NCBI RefSeq assembly: GCF_001676875.1
Contig: NZ_JYKA01000026.1
Coordinates: 1-49,706, forward strand
Length of the DNA stretch: 49,706 bases
Direction: 5' to 3'
From: Chromobacterium subtsugae
GTDB taxonomy: Bacteria > Pseudomonadota > Gammaproteobacteria > Burkholderiales > Chromobacteriaceae
Below the pieces are notes generated by a model. That model had not been told where the DNA came from, did no database searches, and saw nothing but the letters and a program-made list of their open reading frames with translations. Below are positions 6,654 to 28,087 of this stretch, in pieces; positions within the stretch are counted from its first letter, which is position 1, and the number at the start of each line of letters is the position of its first letter. A program made the position numbers and the translations under genes.

Positions 6654-8141
6654 TCAACCCAGGTAACGCGCTTCCAGATGCGCGCGGTAGTGCGCCGGGT
6701 TCAGCGCCTCGCCGGTGGCCCGGGCCACCAGCTCGTCAGTGCTCCAGCGGCTGCCCTGGCTCCAGATATTGGCGTTCAGCCAATCGAACACCGGCGCGAG
6801 ATCGCCCTTCGCGATGCGGCTGTCCAGATCCGGCGTCTGCTTGCGCAATACCGAGAAATACTGCGCCGCGTACATCGCCCCCAGGGTATAGCTGGGGAAA
6901 TAGCCGAAGGTATCGGTCCAGTGGATGTCCTGCAGGCAGCCGTCGCGGTAGTTGCCGCGGGTATCCACGCCCAGATACGCCATCATTTTCTCGTCCCACA
7001 GCGCCGGCACGTCCTCGGCCTCGATCTCGCCGTCGATCAGCGCCCGCTCGATCTCGAAGCGCAGGATCACGTGCGCCGGGTAGCACAGCTCGTCGGCGTC
7101 GACGCGGATGTAGCCGGGCTGCACCCGGGTGTACAGGCGCGCCAGGTTGTCGGCGTCGAAAGCCGGCTGGTCGCCGAAATGCTTGCGGATCAGCGGCGCG
7201 ATCAATTGCAGGAAGCCGCGGCTGCGGCCCAGCTGCATCTCGAACGACAAGCTCTGGCTTTCATGGATGCCCATCGAGCGGGCGCGGCCGACCGGCTGCG
7301 GCAGCCAGTCGCGCGGCAGGCCCTGCTCGTAGCGGGCGTGCCCGGTTTCGTGGACGATGCCCATCAGGCTTTGCACGAAATCGTCGTCGCGATAGCGGGT
7401 CGTGATGCGCACATCTTCCGGCACGCCGCCGCAGAAAGGATGGCTGCTGACATCCAGCCTGCCGCCATCGAAATCGAAACCCAGCAGCCCCATCGCCTCC
7501 AGGCCCAGCTGGCGCTGCTTCTCCACCGGGAAAGGGCCTTGCGGCTGGATCACGCGCTCGCCGGACTGCTTGTCCCGCACCTGGGCGATCAAGCCCGGCA
7601 GCCAGGTTTTGACGTCGCCGAAAATGCGCTCCAGATTGGCGCTGGTCATCCCCGGCTCGTACTTGTCCAGCAACGCGTCGTAGCGGCTGACGCCTGTCGC
7701 CTCCGCCAGCAGCGTCGCCTCTTCTCGCGCCAGGCGCAGCACCTCGCGGAAATTAGGCAGAAACCCCTGCCAGTCGTTGTTCTTGCGCTGGCTGCGCCAG
7801 GCGTGCTCGCAGCGGGCCGCCGCCAGCGCCTTGGCTTCCACCAACGCGGCCGGCAGCAAATTCGCCTGCCGCCATTCGCGGCCGATTTCGCGCAGATTGG
7901 CGCGTTGCGCCGCGTCCAGTTCTTCTTGTGCGGCGGCGTCCAGCTGCGTTTTCAATTCCGGAGCGGTGATCAGCTGGTGCATCAGCACCTGCAATTCGGC
8001 CTGGGCGGCGGCGCGCGCCTCGTTGCCTTTGGCCGGCATCATCGCCGCCTGGTCCCAACTGGCGATCGCGGACAGGTGGCCGAAACGATGCAAACGCTGG
8101 AAAGTTTGGGTCAGGCTCTGATAGGCCGTCTGATTCCCCAT
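6654..8141 (-). CDS. Carboxypeptidase Taq, M32 metallopeptidase
   Basis: 495 residues, the normal length for M32 carboxypeptidases. The zinc motif HETGH is at 264-268, and HESQS (293-297) gives the third ligand Glu294. The other family signatures are present: IRVDADE, GCLQDIHW and FGYFPSYTLGA. It removes C-terminal amino acids from peptides in the cytoplasm. Start at 8141 (MGNQTAYQSL) behind a GGGAGAA ribosome site. A 14-bp palindrome lies 30 bases upstream of the start. Confidence 0.95.
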   Translation of the reverse strand: MGNQTAYQSLTQTFQRLHRFGHLSAIASWDQAAMMPAKGNEARAAAQAELQVLMHQLITAPELKTQLDAAAQEELDAAQRANLREIGREWRQANLLPAALVEAKALAAARCEHAWRSQRKNNDWQGFLPNFREVLRLAREEATLLAEATGVSRYDALLDKYEPGMTSANLERIFGDVKTWLPGLIAQVRDKQSGERVIQPQGPFPVEKQRQLGLEAMGLLGFDFDGGRLDVSSHPFCGGVPEDVRITTRYRDDDFVQSLMGIVHETGHARYEQGLPRDWLPQPVGRARSMGIHESQSLSFEMQLGRSRGFLQLIAPLIRKHFGDQPAFDADNLARLYTRVQPGYIRVDADELCYPAHVILRFEIERALIDGEIEAEDVPALWDEKMMAYLGVDTRGNYRDGCLQDIHWTDTFGYFPSYTLGAMYAAQYFSVLRKQTPDLDSRIAKGDLAPVFDWLNANIWSQGSRWSTDELVARATGEALNPAHYRAHLEARYLG

Positions 8142-12167: not shown

Positions 12168-13415
12168 TTACTTGGCGTACACCGGGAAGCGGTGGCACAG
12201 CGCGGTGGCCTTCTCGGCGACACGGGCGATCAGCGCGTCGTCGTTCGGGTTGTCCAGCACGTCGGCGACCAGGTTGGCCACTTCGATGGCCTCGGCTTCC
12301 TTGAAGCCGCGGGTGGTGATGGCCGGGGAGCCGATGCGGATGCCGGAAGTGACGAACGGCGTTTCCGGATCGTTCGGGATGGCGTTCTTGTTGACGGTGA
12401 TGTGGGCGCGGCCCAGCAGCGCGTCGGCTTGCTTGCCGGTCAGGCCCTTGGCGCGCAGGTCGACCAGGAACACGTGGCTCTCGGTGCGGCCGGACACGAT
12501 GCGCAGGCCGCGCTCGGCCAGGGTCTTGGCCATGATGGCGGCGTTCTTCAGCACCTGCTGCTGGTATTCCTTGAATTCCGGCTGCAGCGCTTCCTTGAAG
12601 GCGACGGCCTTGGCGGCGATCACATGCTCCAGCGGGCCGCCTTGCAGCGTCGGGAACACATTGCTGTTGATGCTCTTCTCGAACTCGGCCTTGGCCAGAA
12701 TGATGCCGCCGCGCGGGCCGCGCAGGGTCTTGTGGGTGGTCGAGGTGACGAAATCGGCGTGCGGCACCGGGTTCGGGTACAGGCCCGCGGCCACCAGGCC
12801 CGCGTAGTGAGCCATGTCCACCATGAAGTAAGCGCCGACCTTCTTGGCGATCTGGCCCATGCGCTCGAAGTCGAAGCGCAAGGCGTAAGCCGACGCGCCG
12901 CCGATGATCAGCTTCGGCTTGGTTTCCATCGCCACGCGCTCCATGTCGTCGTAGTCGATTTCTTCCTTGTCGTTCAGGCCGTAGGCGACGATGTTGAACA
13001 TCTTGCCGGACAGGTTGGCCGGGGAGCCGTGGGTCAGGTGGCCGCCGTGGCCCAGGTTCATGCCCATCACGGTGTCGCCCGGCTTCAGGATGGAGAAGTA
13101 CACCGCCTGGTTGGCCTGCGAGCCGGAGTGCGGCTGCACGTTGGCGTATTCGGCGCCGAACAGTTGCTTGACGCGGTCGATGGCCAGTTGCTCGACGATG
13201 TCGACATGCTCGCAGCCGCCATAGAAGCGCTTGCCCGGGTAGCCTTCGGCGTACTTGTTGGTCAGCTGGGAGCCCTGGGCTTCCATCACCGCCGGGCTGG
13301 TGTAGTTTTCCGAGGCGATCAGTTCAATATGATCTTCCTGGCGCTGGCACTCGGCGGCAATCGCGGCGGCGAGTTCGGGGTCGAATTTGGCAATCGTCTG
13401 GTCGGCAGCAAACAT
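12168..13415 (-). CDS. glyA: Serine hydroxymethyltransferase
   Basis: 415 residues, matching bacterial GlyA. The PLP lysine is Lys229 in [15 protein letters not shown]. Other signatures include the N-terminal [35 protein letters not shown] and [14 protein letters not shown]. It converts serine and tetrahydrofolate into glycine and 5,10-methylene-THF, the main source of one-carbon units, in the cytoplasm. Monocistronic with its own promoter region (13416-13539) and a terminator shared with the convergent omp-like gene. Confidence 0.98.
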
Positions 13416-15397: not shown

Positions 15398-16480
15398 TTA
15401 TAAATCGTCGGCGGTGAAGAACAGCGGAATGCCATCGCGGCTTTCCGGCTGCAGTTCGGCCATCACATGCACCTCGCGCACGTGGCACTCGGCCATCAGC
15501 TCGCGGAAGTTCTCTTCTATCAGCTTGACGTTGTCCAGCGACGCCAGCGGCCAGACGAAAGCCTCCCAATTGCGCTCGTCGCCCTTGGCCGACAAGGTGA
15601 AGTGCAATTCGCCGTTTTCATGGGCGGAGACAATCGCCACCGGCTCCTTGTCCAATTCGCGCAGGCGGCGGATCTGGCTGCTGGCGAACACCTGCAGCGC
15701 CACCTCGAAGCGGGCGAAGTTGCCCGCCACCAGCGCCTGCATCGCCGGCAGCGGCGGCCGGGCGATGGGGAACAGCGTCACGCCTTCGGTCTTGAGCTGC
15801 TCGCCCAGGAACTTCATCAGCGGCATGCCCCAGGCGCCGACCGAGCCGCCCTGGCGCAGCGGCGAGGCCTCGCCGTCGCGCTGCGCCGCCACGCCCATCA
15901 GATAGCGCAGGAACACGCCTTCTTCCTTCACCGTGATCGGCGCCGCCTGGCTCGGCAAGCCGGCGCGGGCCGACGCGCCATCCTGGCGGGCCAATTGATG
16001 CAGCCGGATCGCGTCCAAGCCCACCAGGCTGTCTGGATGCAGCAGCGCGCCGGATATGGCGACATCGCCGTCGGCGGCGAAAACGCCATGCTGGCGCAGC
16101 AGCGCGTTCAGGCCCGCGACATCGGCGATCTCGCCCGGCAGCGTCGCTTCGTTGCGGCTGCCGGCCACCAGCACCAGCGGCATCGCGAACACCTGCGCGC
16201 GCGCGCCGCCGGTTTCCTCCACCGCCTGGCGCAGCGCGTCCCACACCAACTGATAGCAAGCCTGGGTCGGCACCATGGCCAGCGCCACCGAAATCGACAA
16301 TAGCTCGCCGCGCTGCAGCATTTCATCCATGGCTCCCACCAGGGCCTGGCGCCACATGTCGCGCTCGCCGGCGTCGGCGGCGTCCAGCGCCGACTGGGCA
16401 TGGTGGATCAGGCGGTTGGTCAGGGAAACCTGCGGGTGGTACTGGCGCGGATCGGGAAGAATATGGCGGACGGCGTCCAT
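15398..16480 (-). CDS. Conserved betaproteobacterial protein, probably DUF2863 family
   Basis: 360 residues starting MDAVRHILPDPRQYHPQVSL, with AGGA upstream; the open frame extends further 5' but without a ribosome site. It resembles DUF2863, a cytoplasmic family of unknown function in betaproteobacteria; this assignment is from memory and needs a profile search. The N-terminal part is helical (LIHHAQSALDAADAGERDMWR), and the C-terminal third is strand-rich (EPVAIVSAHENGELHFTLSAKG). No signal peptide or membrane segment. Monocistronic. Confidence 0.7.
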   Translation of the reverse strand: MDAVRHILPDPRQYHPQVSLTNRLIHHAQSALDAADAGERDMWRQALVGAMDEMLQRGELLSISVALAMVPTQACYQLVWDALRQAVEETGGARAQVFAMPLVLVAGSRNEATLPGEIADVAGLNALLRQHGVFAADGDVAISGALLHPDSLVGLDAIRLHQLARQDGASARAGLPSQAAPITVKEEGVFLRYLMGVAAQRDGEASPLRQGGSVGAWGMPLMKFLGEQLKTEGVTLFPIARPPLPAMQALVAGNFARFEVALQVFASSQIRRLRELDKEPVAIVSAHENGELHFTLSAKGDERNWEAFVWPLASLDNVKLIEENFRELMAECHVREVHVMAELQPESRDGIPLFFTADDL

Positions 16481-16660
16481 GTGCTGACATCCTGCTGCAA
16501 ACGGAAAAAACGTATTGTGGCACAGCTGCCACGTTATGGGGCGGCGGCGCGCCGGGCATGACGACATGCTGAAGGTCTGCCGTTTCAGCCTTTTTCCCGC
16601 CCCTATGTATCGAAGCGCGACAAAAACTTACATTTCTCGACATTTTCGGAAACGCACATG

Positions 16661-16689
16661 TTGACACTCGCTACCGCAATCCGGATAAT
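16661..16689 (+). promoter_or_regulatory. Near-consensus sigma70 promoter of a candidate small RNA
   Basis: TTGACA (16661-16666), a 17-base spacer, then GATAAT (16684-16689). This is a perfect -35 with an 11-of-12 overall match and ideal spacing. Transcription would start near 16696. No coding sequence follows before the terminator at 16757-16788. Confidence 0.75.
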
Positions 16690-16695
16690 CCGTTC

Positions 16696-16788
16696 TCGTT
16701 GAGATGCAGCAATTGCTTCTTGATAGTTTCTCCTCTATTTCTCCTTTGTAGACTTGGCGCGGGCCGAAAGGCACCGCGCATTTTTTTT
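16696..16788 (+). ncRNA. Candidate trans-acting small RNA, about 93 nt
   Basis: The interval from the predicted start near 16696 to the end of an intrinsic terminator contains no open frame with a ribosome site. The 3' end is a classic Hfq-type terminator: GCGCGG-GCC, GAAA tetraloop, GGC-A-CCGCGC, then eight T. The middle is single-stranded and pyrimidine-rich, with TTTCTCCT twice (16727-16734 and 16738-16745). Both copies are complementary to Shine-Dalgarno sequences. The 5' part holds AGCAATTGCT, able to form a small hairpin or a dimer contact. The architecture matches Hfq-dependent repressors of translation, such as the neisserial sRNAs with anti-SD loops. I cannot name a family; start site accuracy is a few bases. 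Confidence 0.6.
16757..16788 (+). terminator. Strong intrinsic terminator with no upstream gene
   Basis: A nine-pair stem (GCGCGGGCC with GGC-CCGCGC, one bulged A at 16773) capped by GAAA and followed by eight T (16781-16788). Plus strand only. The nearest plus-strand gene upstream ends at 15339 and is separated by a minus-strand gene, so this terminator must serve a non-coding transcript. Confidence 0.85.
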
Positions 16789-17293
16789 GCCTTCCCGCCA
16801 TGTTCATTCGGACAAAAATCTTACGAATCATTGCGATAGACACAGTCTCTTCACAATTCATCTCAGCTTCACAAACGCGATTCCCACGCCAAAACCTGCC
16901 GAGGCCAGCCGCTGCAATCACCCAGCCGCAAGCCTGCACGGCATCCCAAAAGGGAGGTTACATAGAATTCATAATTCTATTGTCATTTAGCAAATATTTC
17001 ACTTGCGAAACAAAACGAATATTGAACAGAAGGAATGATTCGGTTTTTCACCAAACGAACCGAATATAGGAGACCGGCGCAGAGACGCGCGGCAAGGCAT
17101 GGAAACGAAGCCGCTCACCCGGCTTCCCGACTGTCGGACAGGAACGATGATCATGTTAGCACCGCCGCCTGACTTGATTATGACAAACATCAAGACCTAA
17201 TCAATTGACCGGCTCCGCCGCCCACCGCGGCCAGGAACCGCCGGCGCGCGCGCCAGTCTCAAACCATTCCGCCTTCCCACTCTCCGATCCGCC
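16789..17293. other. Intergenic region with several AT-rich inverted repeats
   Basis: No credible gene. It holds ATAGAATT-CAT-AATTCTAT (16962-16980), ATTCGGTT-N12-AACCGAAT (17038-17065), a GAAGCCG/CGGCTTC hairpin (17107-17126) and TTGATTA-N17-TAATCAA (17174-17204). The last lies 90 bases before the ATPase gene and may be its operator. The region is clearly more AT-rich than its surroundings between 16790 and 17080. Confidence 0.5.
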
Positions 17294-19514: not shown

Positions 19515-21368
19515 TCATTTCTCGACCTGGGACACATCCCGCACCGCGCCGGTGTCGGCGCTGGTGGTCATCGCCGCGTAGGCGCGCAAGGCCGGGCTGA
19601 CCACGCGATTTCGGCCCACCGGCTTCCAGGCGTCGCGGCCTTTGGCCTCCATCGCCGCGCGGCGGCGCGCCAATTCTTCGTCCGGCACCGCCAGATGGAT
19701 GCGGCGGTTGGGGATGTCGATCTCCACGGTGTCGCCCTCTTGCGCCAGGCCGATGGCGCCGCCCTCGGCCGCTTCCGGCGAAGCGTGGCCGATCGACAGG
19801 CCGGAGGTGCCGCCGGAAAAGCGGCCGTCGGTCAGCAAGGCGCAGGCCTTGCCCAGGCCCTTGGACTTCAGATAGGAGGTCGGGTACAGCATCTCCTGCA
19901 TGCCCGGCCCGCCCTTGGGCCCTTCGTAGCGGATGATGACGATGTCGCCGGCGACGATCTGGTCGGCGAGGATGCCTTCCACCGCCGCGTCCTGGCTTTC
20001 GAAGATGCGGGCGCGCCCGGTGAATTTCAGGATGGAATCATCGACGCCCGCCGTCTTCACGATGCAGCCGCGCTCGGCGATATTGCCGTACAGCACCGCC
20101 AGGCCGCCATCCTGCGAATAGGCGTGCGCCTTGTCGCGGATGCAGCCGTCGGCGCGGTCGTCGTCCAGCGTCGGGTAGCGCATGCTCTGGCTGAAGGCGA
20201 TGGTGGTGGCCACGCCGCCGGGCGCGGCGCGGAACAAACGGTGCGGCTCGCTGCCTTCGCCATGGCGCATCACATCCCACTGCTCCAGCGCCGAGCCCAG
20301 CGTCGGGCTGTGAACGGTAGGCACGTCGCGGTGAATCAGGCCGGCGCGGTCCAGCTCGGCCAGGATGCCGATCACGCCGCCAGCGCGATGCACGTCCTCC
20401 ATATGATATTTCTGCGTCGCCGGCGCCACCTTCGACAAACACGGCACGCCGCGGCTGATGCGGTCGATGTCGGCCATCTTGAAGTCGACCCCGGCTTCGC
20501 TGGCGGCGGCCAGCAGGTGCAGCACGGTATTGGTGGAGCCGCCCATCGCCACGTCCAGGCTCATCGCGTTCTCGAAGGCCGCCTTGGTGGCGATGCCGCG
20601 CGGCAGAATGGAATAGTCCTCGCCCTCGTAATGGCGCTTGGCCAGCTCGACGATCAGGCGGCCAGCCTTGAGGAACAGTTCCTTGCGGTCAGCGTGGGTG
20701 GCCACCAGGCTGCCGTTGCCGGGCAGCGACAAGCCCAGCGCCTCGGTCAGACAGTTCATCGAGTTGGCGGTGAACATGCCGGAGCAGGAGCCGCAGGTGG
20801 GACAGGCGGAACGCTCGACGCGATCGACGTCTTCGTCGGACACCGCGCTGTTGGCGGCCTCCACCATCGCGTCCACCAAATCCAGCTTGCGCACCTCGTT
20901 GCCCCACTGCACCTTGCCGGCCTCCATCGGCCCGCCGGAGACGAACACCACCGGGATGTTCAGTCGCATCGCCGCCATCAGCATGCCGGGCGTGATCTTG
21001 TCGCAGTTGGAGATGCACACCAGCGCGTCGGCGCAGTGGGCGTTGACCATGTATTCCACGCTATCGGCGATCAGATCGCGGGAAGGCAGACTGTACAGCA
21101 TGCCGCCGTGGCCCATGGCGATGCCGTCGTCGATGGCGATGGTGTTGAACTCCTTGGCCACGCCGCCGGCTTTTTCTATCTCGCGCGCCACCAGCTGGCC
21201 CATGTTCTGCAGGTGCACGTGGCCGGGCACGAACTGGGTGAAGGAGTTGGCGATGGCGATGATGGGCTTGCCGAAGTCGGCGTCGGTCATCCCGGTGGCG
21301 CGCCACAGCGCGCGGGCACCCGCCATGTTGCGGCCGGCAGTGGAGGTGCGGGAGCGGTATTGAGGCAT
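19515..21368 (-). CDS. ilvD: Dihydroxy-acid dehydratase
   Basis: 617 residues, the expected length. Cluster ligands are visible: Cys122 in [12 protein letters not shown] and the [17 protein letters not shown] signature near residues 190-206. Also present are [20 protein letters not shown] at the N-terminus and [19 protein letters not shown] near the C-terminus. It dehydrates 2,3-dihydroxy-isovalerate and its methylvalerate homologue in valine and isoleucine synthesis; Fe-S cluster enzyme of the cytoplasm. AAGGA precedes the start. Stands alone, away from other ilv genes, divergent from lgt. Confidence 0.98.
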
Positions 21369-26221: not shown

Positions 26222-28087
26222 TCAGTCCAGGTACTTCTTGAAGAATTGCTCCATCGCGCCATAGGCGGCGAAGCGGTTTTCCTCGTTGTGGAAGCCGTGG
26301 CCCTCGTTGTCCTTGACGATGTACTCGACCTCCACGCCGCGCTTCTTCAGCGCGTCGACGATCTGGTTGGACTCGTTGATGTTGACGCGCGGGTCCTTGG
26401 CGCCCTGCAGCACCAGCAGCGGCGACTGGATGCGGTCGACATGGAACACCGGCGAGCGTTCGCGCAGCAGATCCTTATCCTTTTCCGGATTGCCCACCAT
26501 CTCGTACATCGAATCCAGGAACGGCTTCCAGTACGGCGGAATGGTCTTCATGAAGGTGAACAGGTTGGACACGCCGACGTAATCCACCGCGCAACGGTAC
26601 AGCTCCGGCGTTTTGGTGATGCCGGACAAGGTGGCGTAGCCGCCGTAGCTGCCGCCGTAGATGCACACCTTCTTCGGATCGGCCACGCCTTGCTTGACCA
26701 GCCAGTCGACGCCGTCGCTGACGTCATCCTGCATCTTGCCGCCCCACTCCTTGAACGAGGCCTCCCAAAACTGGCGGCCATAGCCGGTGGAGCCGCGGAA
26801 GTTCATCTGCAGCACCGCCCAGCCGCGGCTGGCGAAAAACTGCACTTCCGGGTTGAAATGCCAGCTGTCTCGATACCACGGCCCGCCGTGCGGATTGATG
26901 ATCACCGGCAGGCCCTTGGCGTCTTCCTTGCCCTGCGGCAGTGTCAGGTAGCCGTTGATGGTCAGGCCATCGCGGCTCTGGTACTGGATCGGCTTCATGA
27001 CGGCCATCTTGTCTTCCGGCAGCCACGGCGCCAGCTCGGCCAGCAGTTCCAGCTTGCCGCTGCTCTTGTCATACAGATAGCTCTTGCCGCGGGTGCGGTC
27101 GTTCCAGGCGGTCACGATGAAGCGGGTTTCATCGCGGTTGCTGGAGGTGATGTCCACTTGGTAACCCGGCAGCTTGGCCTCCAGGCCGGATAGCAAGGCT
27201 TCGCTTTGCGCGTCGAAGCACTGGCGGCCCGGCTTGTCGGTTTCAAAGTCGGCGCAGGTGATCACCTTGCGCTTGTGCGAGAAGCCCAGGCCGGCGACGT
27301 CGACATCCTGGCGGGCGTAGACTTCTCTCACTTCCTTGCCGGTTTTCGGGTCGTATTCGACGATGGCGGCCTTGTCGCGGCCCAGGCTGCTGGCCGCGTA
27401 GAAGCGCTGATTGTCGAAGGTGAAGAACAGCGGCGTGAAGTTCTCGCGGAAATTGGTGGTGAAAAGCTTGCGGAAGGGGCCGCCCGGCTCGTCGCGGTAC
27501 AGCACCGTGTTGTTGACGCCGTCGCTTTCGATCGCCAAACGGATATTGCCGTCGTGATCAGTGAGCCAGCCGGCCACCTTGCCCGGATTTTCCGCTTCCA
27601 GCTTCAACTCGCCGGTTTTCAGATTGACGCGGTAAACGTCGAACAGCTCCGGGTTGCGCTTGTTCATCTGCACCAGGAGTTCGTCGTCGCGGTCGACCAG
27701 GCCGTCCACGATGTCGACGCGCACGCCGGGGAACGGCGTCAGGTCCTTGCTCTCGCCGCTGGCGAGATCCACGCTGTACAGGTGGAAGTTTTCATCGCCG
27801 GCGTTGTCCTTCACATACACCAGCCGGTCGTTGCCTTTCCAGAAATAGCCGGACAGGTCGCGGTCCTTGATCGCGGTGACGCGCTGGTCGGGCTTGCCCT
27901 GGCGGCGCACCACGATGTTCTTGCGGCTCTCCCACGGCGACAGGAAAGCCACGCTTTGGCCATCCGGCGACAGGCTGAAGCCGCTTTGCTCGGCGTTGCG
28001 GAAAAAGTCGCGCAGCGGAATATCCGCGGCCAGCGCCGAACCGGCCAACAGCGACGCCGCCAGCGCGGTCAGAATTTGCTTCTGCAT
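26222..28087 (-). CDS. S9 family prolyl-oligopeptidase-like peptidase, secreted
   Basis: 621 residues with a signal peptide ([20 protein letters not shown]). The N-terminal part is a beta-propeller ([18 protein letters not shown] onward), and the C-terminal ~230 residues are an alpha/beta-hydrolase domain. Catalytic triad: Ser480 in GGSYGG, Asp565 in GAKDPRV and His597 in EGHGF. Resembles the alanyl-dipeptidyl-peptidase and acylaminoacyl-peptidase-like members of S9C. Periplasmic or secreted peptide degradation is inferred. Monocistronic. Confidence 0.93.

Follow-up and report, generated by a model that had tools for sequence, protein, structure and literature searches.

Does the short intergenic stretch at positions 16661 to 16788 (plus strand) of a 49,706-nucleotide contig of Chromobacterium subtsugae, analysed at its full length and called here the window, encode an orphan small RNA, or does it belong to a family that already has a name? 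The earlier note on this DNA described a near-perfect sigma70 promoter, a repeated anti-Shine-Dalgarno (aSD) motif and a strong GNRA-capped terminator with eight T, and all three were found as described. The sigma70-type promoter TTGACA-17-GATAAT (16661..16689, +) carries 11 of the 12 consensus bases, with the -35 element TTGACA at 16661-16666, a 17-base spacer and the -10 element GATAAT at 16684-16689. In a promoter scan it tops the five promoter-like sites found in 6 kb, where shuffles gave 0.9 on average (sd 1.2). The motif TTTCTCCT occurs at 16727..16734 and again at 16738..16745, both on the plus strand; the window holds three exact matches on its two strands, against 0.48 expected, and one of 100 shuffles reached three. 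The intrinsic terminator (16757..16788, +) is formed by a stem at 16757-16779 with a GAAA loop, then an A and eight T at 16781-16788. By its letters and fold the stem has one bulged A, which is probably why a simple terminator scan left this terminator out of its list; the fold and the Rfam alignment both include it. The predicted transcript would run from a putative start near 16696 to 16788 (+).

The identity of this RNA was obtained by scanning the whole window against Rfam. The single match at the gathering threshold was RF02877 (NmsRb), at 16696-16785 on the plus strand, scoring 98.3 bits where the gathering score is 52 and covering model positions 1-91 of 91. Rfam names the family 'Neisseria metabolic switch regulator b (RcoF1/NgncR163)'. 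In the RF02877 alignment the window is identical over AGUUUCUCCUCUAUUUCUCCUUUGUAGACUUGGCGCG, and it shares the traits of the family: three stem-loops, an aSD motif between stems 1 and 2 and a second one in loop 2. Judged by sequence, the locus is a clear full-length match to RF02877, to which NmsRA/NmsRB and NgncR_162/163 belong. The suggestion that this might be an undescribed orphan has to be abandoned in view of that match, and the presumed orphan acquires a named family. What is already known is the RNA family, described in Neisseria; what is new here is the position of the locus, its single copy, its breadth, the predicted prpC pairing in Chromobacterium and the RF02278-like RNA that accompanies it. 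A literature search, most subscription journals lying outside its reach, found no report of an NmsR-type RNA in Chromobacterium, and the name Chromobacterium does not occur in the NmsR and NgncR papers.

The predicted fold of the 93-nt RNA, at -29.1 kcal/mol (z -2.79, matched by 2 of 200 shuffles), consists of stem-loop 1 (16698..16724, +), a 5-bp stem-loop 2 (16734..16752, +) and the terminator stem 3, and the three stem-loops appear alike in the folds of all 29 aligned sequences. The two aSD motifs, which correspond to alpha-SD1 and alpha-SD2 of NmsRA as set out in the available part of PMC5362039, had been placed in an unstructured middle part. This is right for motif 1, which lies mostly unpaired in the fold, while motif 2 occupies the loop of the weak stem-loop 2.

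Besides the window, the alignment contained 28 of the 53 other covariance-search loci, hand-picked to thin near-identical rows, and it left out sub-gathering matches and second Neisseria copies. Its most conserved part is a 28-nt core (16725..16752, +), invariant in 29/29 sequences; since the second Neisseria copies are absent from the alignment, this invariance describes the NmsRb side, and the gonococcal tandem sibling deviates from the core. Along the structure of the window RNA, 94.1% of the cells are paired, against 83.2% in shuffles and 30.1-47.8% in slid controls. Cells changed on both sides number 68 against 25.4 in shuffles, and the covariation score is 0.395 against 0.207, while the number of pairs with a both-side change does not exceed that of the shuffles (10 against 9.5; 269 of 500). 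The covarying changes are located in stem 1 (95.9% of cells paired, 4 of 10 pairs changed on both sides) and stem 3 (88.8% paired, 6 of 9 pairs). Stem 2 gives no covariation evidence because its pairs never vary. Paired changes in the terminator stem, which the earlier note proposed to look for, are present, and promoter and both repeats are kept outside this strain. In 87 of 110 distinct homologous stretches a promoter keeping 10 or more of the 12 consensus bases was found. This survey was condensed from 140 occurrences, some genomes standing in two collections; loci L055-L134 have the core by construction, and for several Neisseria rows the scan landed in the wrong register.

Two other identities were weighed. 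The site could be no functional sRNA gene at all, but coding sequence or the remains of something decayed, as mechanical ORFs do run across it (16628-16939 on the minus strand, and 16754-16990 on the plus strand at its 3' end). However, core, promoter and paired stems are kept over many genera, and we give this reading practically no weight. The steps in homologue length are not multiples of three and, together with the paired changes, they behave as in an RNA gene; a coding gene is disfavoured solely by these length changes and paired changes, which make a conserved ORF over the site unlikely. The locus could also fall outside NmsR and in RF02278, the Betaproteobacteria 'toxic sRNA' family that includes bdhR1 and S17. 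It does match that model over its full length, if below threshold, at 34.2 bits; it shares the style of two CU-rich unpaired stretches, and the likeness between the NmsR and RF02278 groups has been noted in print (PMC5688073, in the part available). Yet its 34.2 bits fall short of the gathering score of RF02278 (50), its match to RF02877 stands 46 bits above the threshold of that family, and the same genome holds a separate and better RF02278-like gene with 43.9 bits, so that we regard membership of RF02278 as very improbable. The suhB/mmgR family was also rejected (26.1 bits, threshold 41).

If the locus is an NmsR gene, how widely is it shared, and in how many copies? The C. subtsugae genome has one RF02877 match. 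Within the genus, 19/19 genomes have a match over threshold, with a second weak match in one, and a match was found in 60 of the 61 genomes of the family, the exception being listed as 61% complete. Among 399 genomes drawn from the order, searched with stricter filters, 56 had a match at E <= 0.001 and 30 one over threshold. The exact core AGTTTCTCCTCTATTTCTCCTTTGTAGA occurs in 82 stretches of the genome_contigs collection, 80 of them listed. The titles among those listed name Neisseria, Snodgrassella, Eikenella, Stenoxybacter, Chromobacterium, Aquitalea, Vogesella, Paludibacterium, Pseudogulbenkiania, Gulbenkiania, Crenobacter, Craterilacuibacter, Laribacter and Aquaspirillum, as well as Neisseriaceae bins, 'Beta proteobacterium L13' and 'Xenophilus sp. 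AP218F'. The genera named in these titles presumably belong to Neisseriales. A single RF02877 match was seen in 2 of 9 genomes of the genus Neisseria. Two or three NmsR matches were also observed in some genomes outside Neisseria (G035, on contigs C52 and C44; G289; G318; L071), so that copy number has apparently changed repeatedly.

The surroundings of the locus differ from those in Neisseria. The meningococcal NmsR genes are a tandem between dsbB and lrp, according to the accessible text of PMC5362039; such a pair was not found in the C. subtsugae genome, where a single copy with other neighbours stands beside a 360-codon gene, with glyA and ilvD nearby. The 360-codon gene (15398-16484, -) is divergent from the sRNA and adjoins it, has no Pfam match at E <= 0.001, and has a homologue at the equivalent place in 45 of 81 loci, the window included, none of those loci being titled Neisseria. 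On the other side of the sRNA come an AAA ATPase, two small multidrug resistance transporters and then ilvD (19515-21368, -); glyA (12168-13415, -) lies on the near side of the sRNA, opposite to ilvD, both genes being identified with NCBIfam. One or the other is found near the sRNA in many Chromobacteriaceae loci, and neither was found beside the Neisseria loci.

NmsRA/NmsRB of N. meningitidis (RF02877, also called RcoF1/RcoF2) and the Chromobacterium RNA are alike in having three stem-loops, an own promoter and an intrinsic terminator. The TCC triplets mutated in NmsRA are 11 nt apart, and the Chromobacterium RNA keeps the equal 11-nt spacing. In the portion of PMC5362039 available, reporters of six metabolic genes, including prpC, are repressed in meningococcus, and mutating either aSD abolished repression of all of them but gltA, for which the second aSD alone mattered; the same portion reports control by RelA and the stringent response, NmsR levels rising upon relA deletion. 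The gonococcal counterparts NgncR_162/NgncR_163 are represented by locus L133, which has the exact 28-base core with the tandem sibling adjoining, while their stem 1 and terminator sequences differ from those of the Chromobacterium RNA. Their regulon is described, in the parts at hand of PMC9973317 and PMC13104608, as amino-acid uptake and glycine cleavage. Hfq binding is reported for the Neisseria sRNAs in the former, and the C. subtsugae genome has an hfq gene (95.8 bits).

We consider it very likely that the locus represents the NmsR / NgncR_162-163 / RcoF group in a single-copy, Chromobacterium-type form, acting by Hfq-aided blocking of Shine-Dalgarno (SD) sequences in metabolic messages, with prpC as the best-supported target. 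The RNA would be transcribed from its own sigma70 promoter to the intrinsic terminator. By homology to Neisseria, its two CU-rich motifs would pair with SD regions, presumably with the help of Hfq, and such pairing would block translation of metabolic messages. The idea that this is a trans-acting, probably Hfq-dependent sRNA covering ribosome binding sites, as in neisserial sRNAs, gains support from the same homology. Its likely role would be to restrain methylcitrate and TCA-linked enzymes under nutrient-rich conditions, a role that has been reported in meningococcus. A regulator known by experiment in two pathogenic Neisseria is now placed in free-living relatives, whose single copy opens its older role to study without a redundant sibling.

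The message of prpC (2-methylcitrate synthase), a target in meningococcus and a predicted one in Chromobacterium, offers a sharp test of sRNA function in its leader. Pairing was scored as duplex energy ignoring mRNA folding, against a background of 351 genes with our own heuristic starts in 388,003 bases of the C. subtsugae genome plus the window, a sample of the genome. When 35 nt of the sRNA are used, the prpC leader ranks 1/351 (-29.2 kcal/mol; background mean -14.0, sd 4.4); a 30-nt segment puts it at 2/351. In the predicted duplex the SD region contributes AAGGAGAA, and the stretch before it UGUCUACA. As the duplex extends upstream of the SD, UGUAGAC of the sRNA, which comes after the second aSD motif, would take part besides the aSD in this computed pairing. 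Throughout the genus, 17 of 18 prpC leaders are equalled by 12 or fewer of the 351 background genes, and 15 of 18 by two or fewer; the pairing is retained although the leaders vary among themselves. When the sRNA flanks around the aSD core were shuffled, at most 1 of 500 shuffles was as good for 15 of the 18 leaders. The weakest leader of the genus (76/351) belongs to G014, whose sRNA likewise scores lowest among those of the genus. Summed over all 38 prpC leaders, the observed total was reached by 0/500 flank shuffles. Outside the genus (other Chromobacteriaceae, Neisseria and other families of the order), 6 of 20 leaders beat 95% of the flank shuffles, three of them among the five Neisseria-genus leaders (L262, L264, L265), and 7 of the 20 fall below the shuffle mean (L246, L249, L251, L252, L256, L257, L263). 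These prpC leader counts include L258, whose chosen start looks wrong. The identities of prpC and gltA are borne out by NCBIfam. With predicted pairing that is strong in Chromobacterium and patchy elsewhere, prpC is a good candidate as a target common to both groups.

The other neisserial targets behaved differently. In C. subtsugae the leader of gltA ranks 60/351, that of glyA 190/351 and that of prpB 223/351, while sucC at its proper start gives -13.5 kcal/mol, equalled by 119/351; prpB, sucC and glyA are not predicted as targets for the Chromobacterium RNA. Apart from prpC, the neisserial regulon finds no support in the pairing test. The glyA and ilvD proteins change in a meningococcal nmsR mutant, according to the available text of PMC5362039. 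As neighbouring targets in the window they find no support, with ilvD ranking 262 and glyA 190 of 351. Two peptidase genes in the window, for an M32 carboxypeptidase (6654-8141, -) and an S9-family peptidase (26222-28087, -), have leaders ranking 3/351 and 10/351 in pairing with the sRNA. An NmsR-family sRNA could accordingly have targets largely unlike those of Neisseria, these peptidase genes for example, the prpC pairing being of little cellular consequence. The shorter sRNA segment does place the M32 carboxypeptidase above prpC, and the unremarkable scores of gltA, glyA, prpB and sucC would fit. But the longer segment puts prpC at the top, and prpC pairing persists in the genus although the leaders differ; we think a set of largely different targets improbable, though less so than either of the other identities considered above, and prefer a metabolic regulator with prpC as its best-supported target.

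The RF02278-like gene mentioned above is a candidate second anti-SD sRNA of the C. subtsugae genome, outside the window at L227:7879-7980 and unlinked to NmsR. Its match to RF02278 (G000:C56:152914-152979, equal to L227:7915-7980) has 43.9 bits, below the threshold of 50, and against RF02877 it scores 26.6 bits over L227:7879-7978. The known RF02278 RNAs (bdhR1, Bordetella S17) resemble NmsR in two CU-rich unpaired stretches aimed at the ribosome binding site, a short hairpin and a terminator, while their core differs from the NmsR core. For S17, the part at hand of a preprint (PMC11722255) describes a likeness to RF02278 and the conservation of 27 nt across many Betaproteobacteria. In the family, 59 of 61 genomes (not G027 or G058) have an RF02278 match besides the NmsR locus; a match over the RF02278 threshold occurs in 7 of 61. 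In 9/9 Neisseria-genus genomes every RF02278 match coincides with an NmsR locus, and the other 10 genomes of the same search have a separate match in 7 cases.

It is tempting to propose, with slightly less than even confidence, that an ancestor of Neisseriales had two unlinked anti-SD sRNAs: NmsR, for which prpC would be an old target, and one like S17/RF02278, placed upstream of rplM in at least part of Chromobacteriaceae. Chromobacteriaceae would keep both, while Neisseria would have lost the second and doubled NmsR in most species; NmsR and RF02278 would then be branches of one betaproteobacterial superfamily dividing metabolic messages. With two anti-SD RNAs present in the same genomes, one may ask how they divide their targets. 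In C. subtsugae the RF02278-like RNA is located upstream of rplM and rpsI (NCBIfam), and its 102 nt fold at -42 kcal/mol (z -3.95). Among 25 members, TTGTCTCCTCCATCCTCCTT is common to 24 and GGTGGAA to all 25, and by a crude pattern an L13-like start lies downstream in 13.
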